IMG/VR virus record: IMGVR_UViG_3300048024_000045
Location: 1-25,794 of that record
DNA: 25,794 nt
Reading direction: 5' to 3' (one strand)
DNA from: a virus
The notes under the pieces were generated by a model. That model was not told the origin of the DNA and searched no databases. It saw only the letters and a program-made list of their open reading frames with translations. Of the stretch, positions 18,258 to 23,301 are shown piece after piece. Numbering within the stretch: position 1 is the stretch's first letter; each line of letters opens with the position of its first letter. The position numbers and the translations under genes are program-made.

Positions 18258-18560
18258 ATGCCTAGATACGATTTTTACAATAAAAAAGAAAATAAATATT
18301 TTGACGAATTTATGTCTTACGAAGAGAAAGTTGAGTATTTAAAAGTCAATCCTAACATTGAACCTGCTGATTATTTAAATATGAATGTAGTTAGTGGAGT
18401 TACTAAAAGTGAAAAGGGTGATTCTGGTATGAGAGAGGTGTTTAGTAAGATTGCAGAAAAACACCCTACTAGCCCACTCGCAGATAGATATGGTAAAAAA
18501 TCAATTAAGAAATTAAAAGCAAAAAGAGCATATGATAAACATAAAAAGCGTAGTCCTTAG
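18258..18560 (+). CDS. FmdB-like small protein lacking zinc ligands
   Basis: A 100-residue protein whose start 'MPRYDFYNKKENKYFDEFMS' resembles the N-terminal strand pair of FmdB-family zinc ribbons (MPxYxFxCxxC...), but the Cys positions are replaced and the protein has none. Similar Cys-less versions occur in marine T4-like phages, where 'REVFSKIAEKHPTSPLADRY' is the conserved C-terminal part. Function unknown. It overlaps the SoxYZ-like carrier gene by 29 bases. Confidence 0.6.
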   Translation: MPRYDFYNKKENKYFDEFMSYEEKVEYLKVNPNIEPADYLNMNVVSGVTKSEKGDSGMREVFSKIAEKHPTSPLADRYGKKSIKKLKAKRAYDKHKKRSP

Positions 18561-19248
18561 TCTTATTATTTTACTATTTCCAATATCTGTTTGTTCAGAT
18601 AGTTGGAAAGAATGGTTGAAAGATAATTTATATAAAGAACAGTTTTTAGAACGAACTGATGACATAATTATTGTATCACCTTATCGTGCAATAGATAGTG
18701 GAAATGTTCCTATTGTTATCACAACAAAGTCAAAAGACTTAATTAAATTTACTTTAATTATAGACGAGAATCCAACACCTTGTTGTGCAACATTTGAGTT
18801 TGTAGGTTTATTACCATATATTGAAACTAATATAAGAGTAAATGCATACACACACTTAACTGTTGTTGCAGAAGATATAGATGGTAATTTATTTTATAAT
18901 AGAAAGTATATTAAGGCAGCTGGTGGTTGTTCTGCAACACCATTAGTTGATAGTAGTGTACCAAAAGATAGAGTAGATATTATTGATGATAAATTACATT
19001 TTGATAAAAAAAGAATTCAATTCAATCACCCAAACTATTCTGGACTACAATTTGATCAATTAACTAGAACAGAAATACCAGCAGATTATATTGACTCTGT
19101 TGTTGTTAAAACAAGTAAAGGTATATTCTCATATGAGGGAACAATCGGTATATCACAAAATCATTACTTTACTTTGTTTAGTGGAGATATAGAAAAAATA
19201 GTATATACTGATAATTTAGGAAATAATTACGAGGAAAGTTATGAGTAA
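18532..19248 (+). CDS. SoxYZ-like carrier, quinoprotein-dehydrogenase-associated type
   Basis: A 238-residue exported protein. Residues 1-22 are a Sec signal peptide (INIKSVVLSLIILLFPISVC; position -1 Val argues against a lipobox). Residues about 45-136 are SoxY-like: 'NPTP' at 80-83, 'RVNAYT' at 102-107 and the carrier-type 'GGC' with Cys133. Residues about 160-238 are SoxZ-like: 'HPNYSGLQFDQLTR' at 166-179 and 'EGTIGISQN'. This fused order is that of the SoxYZ-like proteins found next to PQQ-dependent alcohol/methanol dehydrogenases (TIGR04557 family, named from memory). Cellular SoxY carries sulfur intermediates on the C-terminal Cys; the role of the fused form is not settled. It overlaps PhoH by eight bases. 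With pqqA at 22339 it suggests support of a host periplasmic quinoprotein. Confidence 0.8.
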   Translation: MINIKSVVLSLIILLFPISVCSDSWKEWLKDNLYKEQFLERTDDIIIVSPYRAIDSGNVPIVITTKSKDLIKFTLIIDENPTPCCATFEFVGLLPYIETNIRVNAYTHLTVVAEDIDGNLFYNRKYIKAAGGCSATPLVDSSVPKDRVDIIDDKLHFDKKRIQFNHPNYSGLQFDQLTRTEIPADYIDSVVVKTSKGIFSYEGTIGISQNHYFTLFSGDIEKIVYTDNLGNNYEESYE

Positions 19249-21204: not shown

Positions 21205-21305
21205 TAGACAAAGAAGGTTATACTCAAAGAGAATGGGATAGAGTTGTAGGTTATGGAAAAGTACCAGATGAATATAAGAAAAAGAATGTTCCAACACAAA
21301 AATAA
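21201..21305 (+). CDS. Very small hypothetical protein
   Basis: A 34-residue frame (MIDKEGYTQREWDRVVGYGK, then VPDEYKKKNVPTQK) starting in an ATGA overlap with the M15 gene and running 20 bases into the exonuclease gene. The coupling and non-random composition support translation, but it may only serve to couple the two flanking genes. Confidence 0.45.
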   Translation: MIDKEGYTQREWDRVVGYGKVPDEYKKKNVPTQK

Positions 21306-21972
21306 TTTAGATATACCAGACATAAGTGCTAAGACTTCTGATGGCATAAGGTTATACGAAACACCAGAGGGTAAGTTTTATCCATCTATCACTACTGTTT
21401 TAAAAAACAGAGGTAAAGAAGGTTTATTTGAGTGGAGAAAAAGAGTTGGTGAAGATGTTGCAACTTATGTTTCAAGAAAATCTGCAACAAGAGGAACTCA
21501 AGTACATCATTATTGTGAAAAGTATTTAGACAATGGTTATGAGAACAAAGATTGGAATGAATATAAAAAAGGTAGATTTCTATCTTATTGTTTGTTCTCA
21601 CAACTAAAACCATATTTAGATAAAAGAATTGGATTGATACATTGTCAAGAAAGAGCATTATGGCACGACTTTTATAAGATTGCTGGTAGGGTTGATTGTA
21701 TTGCAGAGTGGAACGGAGAGTTGTCTGTAATTGATTTCAAAACAAGTACCAAAGAACGAGAAGATAATTGGAATGAGAACTATTATATACAAGCCTCTGC
21801 ATATGCAGAGATGTATCAAGAAAGAACATCACAAGAGATAAACCAGATAGTTATATTAGTGGTTACAGAAGACGGTACAGTTCAAGAGTTTGTAAAAGAT
21901 AAACATAAATATTTGCATCTACTTGACAAAGAGTTAAATCTATATTATAATACTGTAAAGACTGGTAAATGA
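21286..21972 (+). CDS. PD-(D/E)XK exonuclease
   Basis: A 228-residue nuclease from the ATG at 21286, the start that best fits family N-termini ('LDIPDI...YETPEGKFYPSITTVL'); starts at 21253 and 21268 are possible. Catalytic motifs are 'GRVDCIA' (Asp137) and 'VIDFKTS' (Asp150, Lys152), with the QxxxY-like 'YIQASAYAEMY' following, which places it among RecB/Cas4-like single-strand or end-processing nucleases. A likely role is DNA recombination or host DNA degradation. Its last codons contain a consensus promoter for the tmRNA-pqqA unit. Confidence 0.75.
   Translation: MFQHKNNLDIPDISAKTSDGIRLYETPEGKFYPSITTVLKNRGKEGLFEWRKRVGEDVATYVSRKSATRGTQVHHYCEKYLDNGYENKDWNEYKKGRFLSYCLFSQLKPYLDKRIGLIHCQERALWHDFYKIAGRVDCIAEWNGELSVIDFKTSTKEREDNWNENYYIQASAYAEMYQERTSQEINQIVILVVTEDGTVQEFVKDKHKYLHLLDKELNLYYNTVKTGK
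21923..21951 (+). promoter_or_regulatory. Consensus sigma-70 promoter of the tmRNA-pqqA unit
   Basis: TTGACA (21923-21928), 17-base spacer, TATAAT (21946-21951), both perfect, inside the end of the exonuclease gene. The predicted start is about 21958. Only the tmRNA and pqqA lie between it and the terminator at 22429-22472. Confidence 0.8.
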
Positions 21973-22020: not shown

Positions 22021-22277
22021 ATAAAGGATACTTGACGAAGATGACTTTGAGATAGACTGGACGAGGGGGCAGTACCCTCCACCTCCACCAAAAAGCCTCT
22101 AATGAGGGGGTGAAATAGGGTAGACAGATGTTAAAGGGTTATTGGAGAGTATGGGTTGACTTCCTTATAGGTCAAACACTATAAACGCAAACGATAACTT
22201 TGCATCTCAAGATTTCGCACTAGCTGCTTAATCTGATAGGGTTCGGTGAGTTCCTAGTAACAGAATACTCACCATTT
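22021..22277 (+). ncRNA. ssrA: Circularly permuted two-piece tmRNA
   Basis: Gene order is acceptor piece, short spacer, coding piece, as in alphaproteobacterial tmRNA. The acceptor piece ends in an encoded CCA (22088-22090). Before it lie CACCTCC (22080-22086) and a T-arm of GAGGG (22063-22067), a 7-base loop and CCCTC (22075-22079). CACCTCC pairs fully (one G-U) with GGGGGTG (22106-22112), which opens the coding piece. The 15-base spacer would be removed. The tag reading frame starts at GCA (22187) and encodes ANDNFASQDFALAA, then TAA (22229-22231). The LAA end is the ClpXP degradation signal. A hairpin GGTGAGT/ACTCACC (near 22244-22274) closes the coding piece. Outer ends are approximate. 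The RNA rescues stalled ribosomes with SmpB and tags the product. Confidence 0.9.
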
Positions 22278-22315: not shown

Positions 22316-22338
22316 CAATACTAGTTAGGAGAATAACT

Positions 22339-22416
22339 ATGGCTTGGTCAAAACCAACTATTACTGAAATTTCAGTAGGTCTTGAAATTAATTCATACGC
22401 TTGCGCTGAGAAGTAA
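22339..22416 (+). CDS. pqqA: PqqA, precursor peptide of pyrroloquinoline quinone
   Basis: A 25-residue peptide: M-A-W-S-K-P at the start, 'EISVGLEINSYACAEK' at the end. It fits PqqA: Trp-x-Lys-Pro near the N-terminus and Gly14-Leu15-Glu16-x3-Tyr20, the Glu and Tyr that PqqE (with PqqD) cross-links to make the PQQ skeleton. 'GLEINSYACAE' is close to the alphaproteobacterial methylotroph form (GMEVTSYESAE). AGGAG (22327-22331) lies seven bases upstream. No pqqB-E genes are in the window, so the phage would feed host PQQ synthesis. It is co-transcribed after the tmRNA and followed directly by a terminator. PQQ is the cofactor of periplasmic methanol, alcohol and glucose dehydrogenases. Confidence 0.85.
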   Translation: MAWSKPTITEISVGLEINSYACAEK

Positions 22417-22428
22417 TTTCACTAAATT

Positions 22429-22472
22429 GGGTGGGGTATAATACCCTTGAGGTTTGAACCCACCCTTTTTTT
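22429..22472 (+). terminator. Intrinsic terminator after pqqA
   Basis: GGGTGGG (22429-22435) pairs perfectly with CCCACCC (22459-22465) and is followed by seven Ts (22466-22472). An alternative internal hairpin (GGGTAT/ATACCC, 22434-22446) could compete with the main stem. It separates the tmRNA-pqqA unit from gp33. Confidence 0.85.
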
Positions 22473-22501: not shown

Positions 22502-22711
22502 ATGACACCAAAAACATTTTCAATATACATAGAATCTCAAGTCAGAGAGAAAAACATATCACATATGGATGCAATATTAGAATATTGTACCAAGAACGAA
22601 GTAGAACCAGATAGTATAACTGGTCTAATCCAAAAACCACTTAAAGATAAAATAGAAGCAAACGCAAGAGATTTAAACTTTTTACCTAAAATGGGTAAAC
22701 TACCAGTATGA
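22502..22711 (+). CDS. 33: Late promoter transcription accessory protein, gp33-like
   Basis: A 69-residue protein matching the short gp33 of cyanophage/pelagiphage T4-likes: 'FSIYIESQVREKNISHMDAI', 'LEYCTKN' and the terminal 'ARDLNFLPKMGKLPV'. gp33 links the sliding clamp gp45 and RNA polymerase for late transcription with sigma gp55. Its position just before the gp59 gene is the T4 arrangement. It overlaps gp59 by four bases (ATGA). The TATAAATA octamers at 8115 and 25691 are the expected targets of this system. Confidence 0.75.
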   Translation: MTPKTFSIYIESQVREKNISHMDAILEYCTKNEVEPDSITGLIQKPLKDKIEANARDLNFLPKMGKLPV

Positions 22712-23301
22712 TTCATATTATGGACGCCTTTAATGCATTTAAAATTTATATGGGTTTGAAAGCACATTTCAACTCAGACTACGACTTTACAAAGTATGGT
22801 GGTAAAACTAGAGCTAGTAAATCTAGTTATCTACAAAGAAAAGACAAACACTTTTTTGGTAAAGTTGCAAGAAAGTATGGTGATGAAACTCAAGACTTTT
22901 TTGTTTCTAATTTTTTAAGAAATGAAAAAGGATACATTGGAGAGTTCAATGATAGGAACTTTACAGATTGGAAAAAAAGACATCAATCATTAAGATATAT
23001 GTTTGAACAAGATATGAACTTGTTGTTAAATCAAGTTACAGATTTTAATAAATTATTTACTGTTGAAAACGGACAACACCCAATATTGTTTAGAAATTAT
23101 TTATCACAAAGAATCAATATAGAAACAATGATTATATTAAACAAGTTAGTAAACTATCAAAAGGATTGGGATAAACAAATAAATGAAAACATTATCTGGC
23201 CTAATCATAGAAACAAATTAAATAATTACGATTCACTATTGACAATTAATGAAACAGAGTATAAAATGAAAGTTCTAAATTTAACAAAAAATAAAAAGTA
23301 A
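22708..23301 (+). CDS. 59: DNA helicase loader, gp59-like
   Basis: A 197-residue protein (T4 gp59 is 217 aa). The N-terminal pattern 'AFKIYMGLKAHFNSDYDFTK' then 'YGGKTRASKSSYLQRKDKHF' and 'KVARKYGDETQDFFVSNFL' is the gp59 signature, and the rest is helical. gp59 places gp41 helicase on gp32-coated forks. Gene neighbours are gp33 upstream and, after four other genes, probable gp32, a T4-like block interrupted by insertions. It overlaps both neighbours. Confidence 0.8.
   Translation: MIHIMDAFNAFKIYMGLKAHFNSDYDFTKYGGKTRASKSSYLQRKDKHFFGKVARKYGDETQDFFVSNFLRNEKGYIGEFNDRNFTDWKKRHQSLRYMFEQDMNLLLNQVTDFNKLFTVENGQHPILFRNYLSQRINIETMIILNKLVNYQKDWDKQINENIIWPNHRNKLNNYDSLLTINETEYKMKVLNLTKNKK

Follow-up and report, generated by a model that had tools for sequence, protein, structure and literature searches.

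Introduction

In the formation of the cofactor PQQ, PqqE together with PqqD joins a glutamate and a tyrosine of the peptide PqqA (PMC8326336), and the formation of PQQ in a cell extract upon addition of PqqA is cited in PMC9851590. Phage PqqA as such is already in print: it was reported in 2020 for a Lake Baikal population that also encodes methanol dehydrogenase (PMC7678222), and viral pqqA, pqqD, and pqqE were reported from reservoir sediments in 2026 (PMC13188868). The Baikal phage VP_266 resembles the phage studied here in being T4-like, in encoding PqqA and in having a predicted PQQ-using host. However, its predicted hosts are freshwater Methylophilaceae, unlike the candidate marine host of our phage; its population encodes methanol dehydrogenase, whereas no PQQ alcohol dehydrogenase was found in 50 viral records here; and the account of VP_266, in the part available to us, names no SoxYZ-like partner (PMC7678222).

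A second gene of our phage, a SoxYZ-like gene, also has described relatives. Published phage soxYZ genes are likewise fused, carry GGCS and CC motifs and come from marine myoviruses, and they were read as genes of thiosulfate oxidation (PMC8190135); in contrast, our gene accompanies pqqA, and its scores place it near a family associated with PQQ dehydrogenases. Fused SoxYZ-like proteins have also been reported to go with PQQ alcohol dehydrogenases, and PP_2677 from the ped cluster of Pseudomonas putida is, like our gene, SoxYZ-like and tied to these enzymes, but it is bacterial, lies within the dehydrogenase cluster and has a putative function (PMC12997753).

Among cultured phages, Melnitz shares with the window (the whole stretch of 25,794 bases analyzed here) a tmRNA followed by genes for a late coactivator and a helicase loader, and it has pqqA. 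Its pqqA, however, lies elsewhere, at 76140 beside a tRNA-Leu; it belongs to the RFGFEVTMY type, and in its place an ORF on the opposite strand is annotated. The main text of the Melnitz paper as available to us mentions PQQ a single time, as a medium component (PMC9004378), and term searches of OM43 phage papers found no PqqA. In bacteria, Methylophilaceae have 3-12 pqqA copies and one pqqBCDE set (PMC4109929). The nearest bacterial PqqA of the HIMB59 order is identical to the window peptide at 23/25 residues, with copies away from pqqBCDE there too; unlike these copies, the window PqqA is encoded by a phage, next to a tmRNA, and pqqBCDE were not found with it. As far as the literature searched tells, the spread and non-annotation of phage pqqA, its occurrence in a range of cultured phages of methylotrophs and the link with a SoxYZ-like gene are new.

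Results

Identification and Genomic Setting of pqqA

The window is a virus record, and PHROGs matches mark its contig as a T4-like phage. An ORF of 25 codons plus stop at 22339-22416 on the + strand encodes MAWSKPTITEISVGLEINSYACAEK, in which an initial annotation had recognized a 25-residue PqqA peptide with Trp-x-Lys-Pro and the pair Glu16-x3-Tyr20; translation placed W3-x-K5-P6, Glu16, and Tyr20 exactly there. The proposed relationship to Pfam family PF08042 was borne out by a match of 32 bits (cut-off 21.1, E 1.2e-7) over all 19 profile positions, and the NCBIfam equivalog TIGR02107 matched with 39.4 bits (cut-off 20, E 3.8e-10) over all 21 positions. PqqA was the single family listed for the 25-aa peptide in Pfam and likewise in NCBIfam; PHROGs listed no family for it. 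The peptide thus passes both curated cut-offs and has Glu-x3-Tyr within the length of about 20-30 residues that marks PqqA, and we confirmed 22339-22416 as a PqqA gene. A chance ORF was rejected on the profile scores, the retention in relatives and the synonymous excess described below.

The AGGAG at 22330-22334 (+ strand) is the likely ribosome-binding site of pqqA, as read from the sequence and as suggested by how often such sites precede pqqA ORFs in viruses: among the matches listed, a Shine-Dalgarno-like 4-mer lay within 18 nt upstream of 255/257 viral pqqA ORFs, versus 799/5135 random ATGs in the same loci. A hairpin followed by a T run (22430-22469, + strand) is a possible but weakly supported terminator (-17 kcal/mol, z -1.28); 23/200 shuffles fold equally well, and the terminator scan does not list it.

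The gene lies inside the phage genome, as the location of an auxiliary metabolic gene requires, and its flanks, all on the + strand, are a phage exonuclease upstream (21253-21972, phrog_298) and, downstream, a phage late promoter transcriptional regulator (22502-22711, phrog_254) and a phage DNA helicase loader (22708-23301, phrog_269), the last of which was used as the query for relatives. Other phage genes in the window encode PhoH, primase, ribonucleotide reductase, endolysin, and a baseplate-type protein. The window also encodes a homologue of 30S ribosomal protein S21 and an adenosylcobalamin-dependent ribonucleotide reductase.

Directly upstream of pqqA sits a circularly permuted two-piece tmRNA (22028-22274, + strand) with the tag ANDNFASQDFALAA, which the initial annotation had not listed. 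It matched the Rfam models RF04321 (22028-22231, 113.6 bits) and RF01849 (21973-22274, 107.8 bits); ARAGORN, unlike these two models, found no tmRNA in the window, and when the stretch between the two genes was searched for a riboswitch with Rfam, the tmRNA tail alone matched. Upstream of both genes, TTGACA-17-TATAAT at 21923-21951 (+ strand) is a putative sigma-70 promoter by its 12/12 consensus match; six promoter-like sites were found, versus 4.3 in shuffles. Among the matches listed, a tmRNA-tag-like start lay at most 350 nt upstream of pqqA in 44/156 viral loci of the window PqqA type and in 1/107 of the other type. By DNA, Melnitz, a phage of OM43, was the nearest cultured relative, matching 22% of the query at 68% identity, and five Pelagibacter phages matched the window region. 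The window tmRNA was 74-78% identical over aligned bases to that of Melnitz and likewise to those of seven candidate host genomes, and this equal similarity led us to reject it as a guide to the host; a tmRNA was found in 7/10 candidate host genomes, with two additional weak matches in one genome.

No PqqB, C, D, or E was found among the 44 window ORFs of 60 aa or more (NCBIfam, E <= 1e-5), in agreement with the initial annotation, and the window holds pqqA alone of the pathway pqqABCDE. The further claim that the phage supplies only the substrate stands as far as pqqB-E are concerned, but has to be amended for a second PQQ-linked gene at 18532-19248. PqqE passed its cut-off in none of 73 viral records (28 + 45), most of them fragments; the set of 45 includes the complete genomes of five isolates, L157 is a member of the 73 that is without pqqA, and the set of 28 gave two weak matches (27.7 and 22.2 bits, cut-off 381). 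The PQQ alcohol dehydrogenase family TIGR03075 was found in 0/50 viral records, most of them fragments, and so these phages, unlike the Baikal phage, do not bring the dehydrogenase.

Retention in Relatives and Synonymous Excess

Relatives were collected via the helicase loader without reference to pqqA, which gave 38 loci. As the reading of the initial annotation requires, related phage genomes carry the gene and conserve its Glu/Tyr pair: pqqA was present in 31/38 loci, one of which (L109) had also come from a pqqA pattern scan, and the pair was kept in all 31. Five of the seven loci without pqqA (L129, L142, L152, L154, L155) start too near the loader to cover its place, and the other two (L157, L158) are distant relatives, 36% identical. 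The pair was also kept in 42/42 pqqA ORFs beside a SoxYZ-like gene, found with a pattern that tolerates Gln or Phe there.

Among seven pqqA alleles 10 sites differed, and the differences at 8 of these were synonymous, versus 23-28% expected (P 2e-4 to 9e-4, with sites taken as independent); only residues 4 and 7 varied. In the 60 nt upstream, 27-37 positions differed from the window in 5/7 alleles, in an ungapped comparison that indels inflate.

Spread and Annotation of Phage pqqA

A degenerate pattern of the PqqA core found at least 120 stretches in IMG/VR, and a narrower pattern for the window PqqA type also found at least 120. The two pattern scans and the loader loci gave at least 264 loci, which are not a random sample: some are pieces of one contig (e.g., L268/L137, L311/L145, L346/L123, L355/L146), and in the pattern-found loci the conserved residues are present by construction. 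Among the matches listed, a short ATG-started PqqA ORF was present in 257/264 viral loci, the seven exceptions being the loader loci without pqqA, and pqqA stood next to 139 different neighbor pairs in 263 loci. Seventeen of 20 representative neighbor proteins matched PHROGs families, including portal, terminase, capsid, holin, endolysin, and exonuclease, and three matched none. Single-linkage clustering by shared proteins merged most viral loci into one group, and for this reason we give no number of independent acquisitions.

Searched against a public phage collection, the window peptide gave two weak Acinetobacter-labelled matches only, whereas a query of the RFGFEVTMY type gave 12 records: nine Methylophilales phages (Venkman, P19250A, MEP301, MEP401, MEP402, and four Melnitz strains), one environmental genome and two Acinetobacter-labelled records. 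The isolates thus came up with the RFGFEVTMY-type query only, not with the window peptide, and no Pelagibacter phage was among the matches to either query in this collection. Cultured OM43/LD28 phages have the other PqqA type, RFGFEVTMY, which we take to be the type of OM43 bacteria themselves. The nine isolates stand without a firm denominator, as NCBI taxonomy has further Methylophilales phages, and for MEP401 and Melnitz-1, -2, and -3 it is the match to the query that marks them as carriers. Five isolates and the environmental genome passed the TIGR02107 cut-off (6/6 tested). The two Acinetobacter-labelled matches were dropped; the one inspected is probably bacterial DNA filed as phage. This record, L371 (CAKLQF020000010.1), is named Acinetobacter phage; downstream of the match lie pqqB, pqqC, pqqD, and a gene for a radical SAM protein, and it also encodes a polyphosphate kinase.

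In blastn comparisons of 3.7-6 kb around pqqA, several isolate pairs, e.g., MEP301 with MEP401, MEP402, and P19250A, shared only a piece of 73-86 bases, which is pqqA itself. The closely related MEP401 and MEP402 shared more, and Venkman and MEP301 also shared the lysis region. No annotated feature lay under the pqqA match in Venkman, P19250A, MEP301, MEP401, and MEP402. Among six phage records inspected, four had no feature at pqqA and two (Melnitz EXVC044M and MW202481) had a hypothetical protein on the opposite strand, so that pqqA was correctly annotated in 0/6; the initial annotation had expected gene callers to miss it. Phage pqqA is common and often unannotated.

The Candidate Host

One scan of bacterial genomes returned 98 stretches, 68 of them with the form SEISVGLEINSYACAEK, and the nearest bacterial PqqA (14 ORFs) differed from the window peptide at 2/25 residues. 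Twenty-two of 25 genomes tested belong to one order, which also includes HIMB59-MED-G10; HIMB59 has been equated with AEGEAN-169 (PMC10308909). In the HIMB59 order pqqA was present in 31/32 genomes, with 1-5 copies each. That candidate hosts should carry pqqB-E had also been proposed, and PqqE passed its cut-off in 20/25 genomes with the nearest PqqA; in all 20 a pqqA copy lay about 2.1-2.3 kb away. Further pqqA copies in the order are dispersed, many of them away from pqqBCDE. Judging from these PqqA comparisons, bacteria of the HIMB59 order (AEGEAN-169) are the likely host of the window phage. A term search of the HIMB59 literature found no mention of PQQ or methanol.

Genomes of this order, of about 1.3 Mb, hold up to five dispersed pqqA, e.g., L195, L198, and L221 on one contig. 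At least two of the 98 bacterial stretches are phage contigs: L161 and L188, filed under Maricaulis and Flavobacteriaceae genomes, carry pqqA and are up to 99% identical to IMG/VR pieces. Phage contigs are thus binned into bacterial genomes, and through such errors a pqqA of phage origin can pass for a bacterial one.

A SoxYZ-Like Gene Linked to pqqA

Scanning the 44 window ORFs brought up a gene at 18532-19248 (+ strand) that the initial annotation had not listed, encoding a SoxYZ-like fused carrier linked to PQQ dehydrogenases. The Pfam profiles for SoxY and SoxZ both passed their cut-offs; Pfam names the halves in this way, which is how such genes get sulfur-gene labels. Against TIGR04557, the quinoprotein dehydrogenase-associated SoxYZ-like carrier, the protein scored 135.5 bits, 4.5 short of the cut-off of 140, and we filed it as TIGR04557-like, not as a member. 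Its scores for SoxY (TIGR04488, 44.1 bits, cut-off 125) and SoxZ (TIGR04490, 27.4 bits, cut-off 76) were both under the cut-off and its motif is GGCSA instead of GGCGG, which sets it apart from true SoxYZ.

Five of 50 viral records matched TIGR04557, and two passed its cut-off (140.4 and 141.6). An alignment search with seven viral SoxYZ-like copies gave 65 viral loci; in 42 of these a pqqA in the same orientation followed at a distance of 0.5-4.6 kb, and where at least 4.4 kb of downstream sequence was available, 30/32 loci had a same-strand pqqA. All seven seed copies came from pqqA-bearing loci, which biases this sample toward co-occurrence. Two SoxYZ-like loci (L442, L443) had no pqqA, whole contigs included. 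The SoxYZ-like gene was found in 0/5 isolate genomes tested, and its pairing with pqqA is therefore not general.

TIGR04557 passed its cut-off in 20/25 candidate host genomes, in 17 of them on the same contig as pqqE and 4.0-6.2 kb from it. In one host locus the order is pqqA, pqqB, pqqC, pqqD, pqqE, followed by genes for a MoxJ-like binding protein, for a cytochrome c whose best family, TIGR03874, stays below its cut-off, for a PQQ methanol/ethanol dehydrogenase and, last, for the SoxYZ-like protein. The host homologue thus adjoins a TIGR03075 dehydrogenase, and the phage genes pqqA and SoxYZ-like are relatives of both end genes of one host cluster. The window SoxYZ-like protein was no more than 32-38% identical to the copies of the candidate hosts, which speaks against a firm host assignment.

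Discussion

From the family assignment, the synonymous excess, the absence of PqqE over its cut-off in the viral records tested, the co-occurrence with a SoxYZ-like gene and the correspondence to both ends of a host cluster, we infer a probably working phage pqqA of the HIMB59 type. Considering these results, we have proposed a plausible model. Host RNA polymerase would transcribe a tmRNA-pqqA unit from the consensus promoter, and host PqqD and PqqE would cross-link Glu16 to Tyr20 of the phage peptide, after which the remaining host enzymes would complete PQQ. One PqqA peptide would be used per PQQ, whereas PqqB-E would be reusable and would survive host gene shut-off. As enzymes made before infection would persist while the substrate is consumed, pqqA would be the cheapest useful gene to carry. 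The SoxYZ-like protein may serve the same periplasmic PQQ methanol/alcohol dehydrogenase, and together with PqqA it would keep electrons entering respiration during infection. It is quite probable, in our judgment, that the phage supplies the consumed PQQ substrate and an accessory, by which the PQQ dehydrogenase of a presumed host would be kept running; the host, the timing of expression, the conversion of the peptide by host enzymes and the benefit to the phage are inferred from sequence. The pattern suggests that phages top up the one consumed part of the PQQ pathway. With 1-5 pqqA copies already present in genomes of the HIMB59 order, it is not evident that PqqA would run short.

Several other readings of pqqA were weighed against this supply model. 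PqqA might work as proposed in another marine alphaproteobacterium, or PQQ might serve, e.g., a sugar dehydrogenase; PqqA of the GLEINSYACA type also occurs in other Alphaproteobacteria, and some bacterial pqqA copies adjoin sugar-dehydrogenase-like proteins (named by eye). We regard this as unlikely, as the SEISVGLEINSYACAEK form was found in 68/98 bacterial stretches, with 22/25 genomes in the one order that includes HIMB59-MED-G10, and the second phage gene points to a methanol/ethanol-type cluster. If phage PqqA were instead a decoy that occupies PqqD/PqqE, lowers PQQ and shuts the host pathway down, carriage of the substrate alone, and the high expression likely from the promoter match, would fit. 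A decoy would be free to lose the two cross-linked residues, however, and both are kept in every relative seen; the phage peptide passes an equivalog cut-off, and a companion gene that belongs with PQQ dehydrogenases would be senseless for shut-down, which makes a decoy very improbable. It is hardly credible that pqqA is a hitchhiking host gene without function for the phage: a gene so tiny is cheap to keep and dispersed host copies are available for pick-up, but the synonymous excess, the ribosome-binding-like site in 255/257 ORFs and the recurrence beside 139 different neighbor pairs in 263 loci (the last two among the matches listed), together with the presence in nine isolates, speak against it.

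A separate question is whether the second gene is a true SoxYZ for thiosulfate oxidation whose proximity to pqqA is unrelated. Pfam SoxY and SoxZ over their cut-offs would support this, as would the published reading of fused SoxYZ from phages, which carry ggCs and CC motifs, as thiosulfate-oxidation genes (PMC8190135). Nevertheless, the score for TIGR04557 (135.5 bits) stands against those for SoxY (44.1) and SoxZ (27.4), pqqA lies beside the gene in 30/32 loci, the host homologue adjoins a PQQ dehydrogenase, and the 17 families to which window ORFs matched (E <= 1e-5) include no sox partner. We therefore consider a true SoxYZ rather unlikely and prefer a carrier that would work with a PQQ dehydrogenase.

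The supply model may extend beyond the window: marine phages of PQQ users might carry a minimal support kit for PQQ methanol/alcohol dehydrogenase, consisting of PqqA and, with HIMB59-type hosts, of the SoxYZ-like protein, a generalization for and against which we see the balance as even. If it is true, phages of such hosts would generally carry just the consumed peptide of a cofactor that is made ribosomally, and at least part of the published sulfur metabolism of ocean phage soxYZ would be methanol/alcohol oxidation. This 25-codon gene, which annotation misses, occurs in nine methylotroph phages in culture and in viral contig pieces by the hundreds. As an example of a phage that contributes to a host pathway only its stoichiometric, consumed component, it is clean and can be tested.

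Both in phages and in the cluster of the candidate host, pqqA and the SoxYZ-like gene are tightly linked, and this calls for a re-examination of phage soxYZ genes counted as thiosulfate oxidation. We think that at least part of the phage SoxYZ set of PMC8190135, compared here with its published description only, is TIGR04557-like protein. A Cys-Cys pair was present in 7/7 aligned viral SoxYZ-like proteins and absent from all 10 host copies compared (of 12, without L382 and L386); this viral pair may matter for the function of the SoxYZ-like protein.
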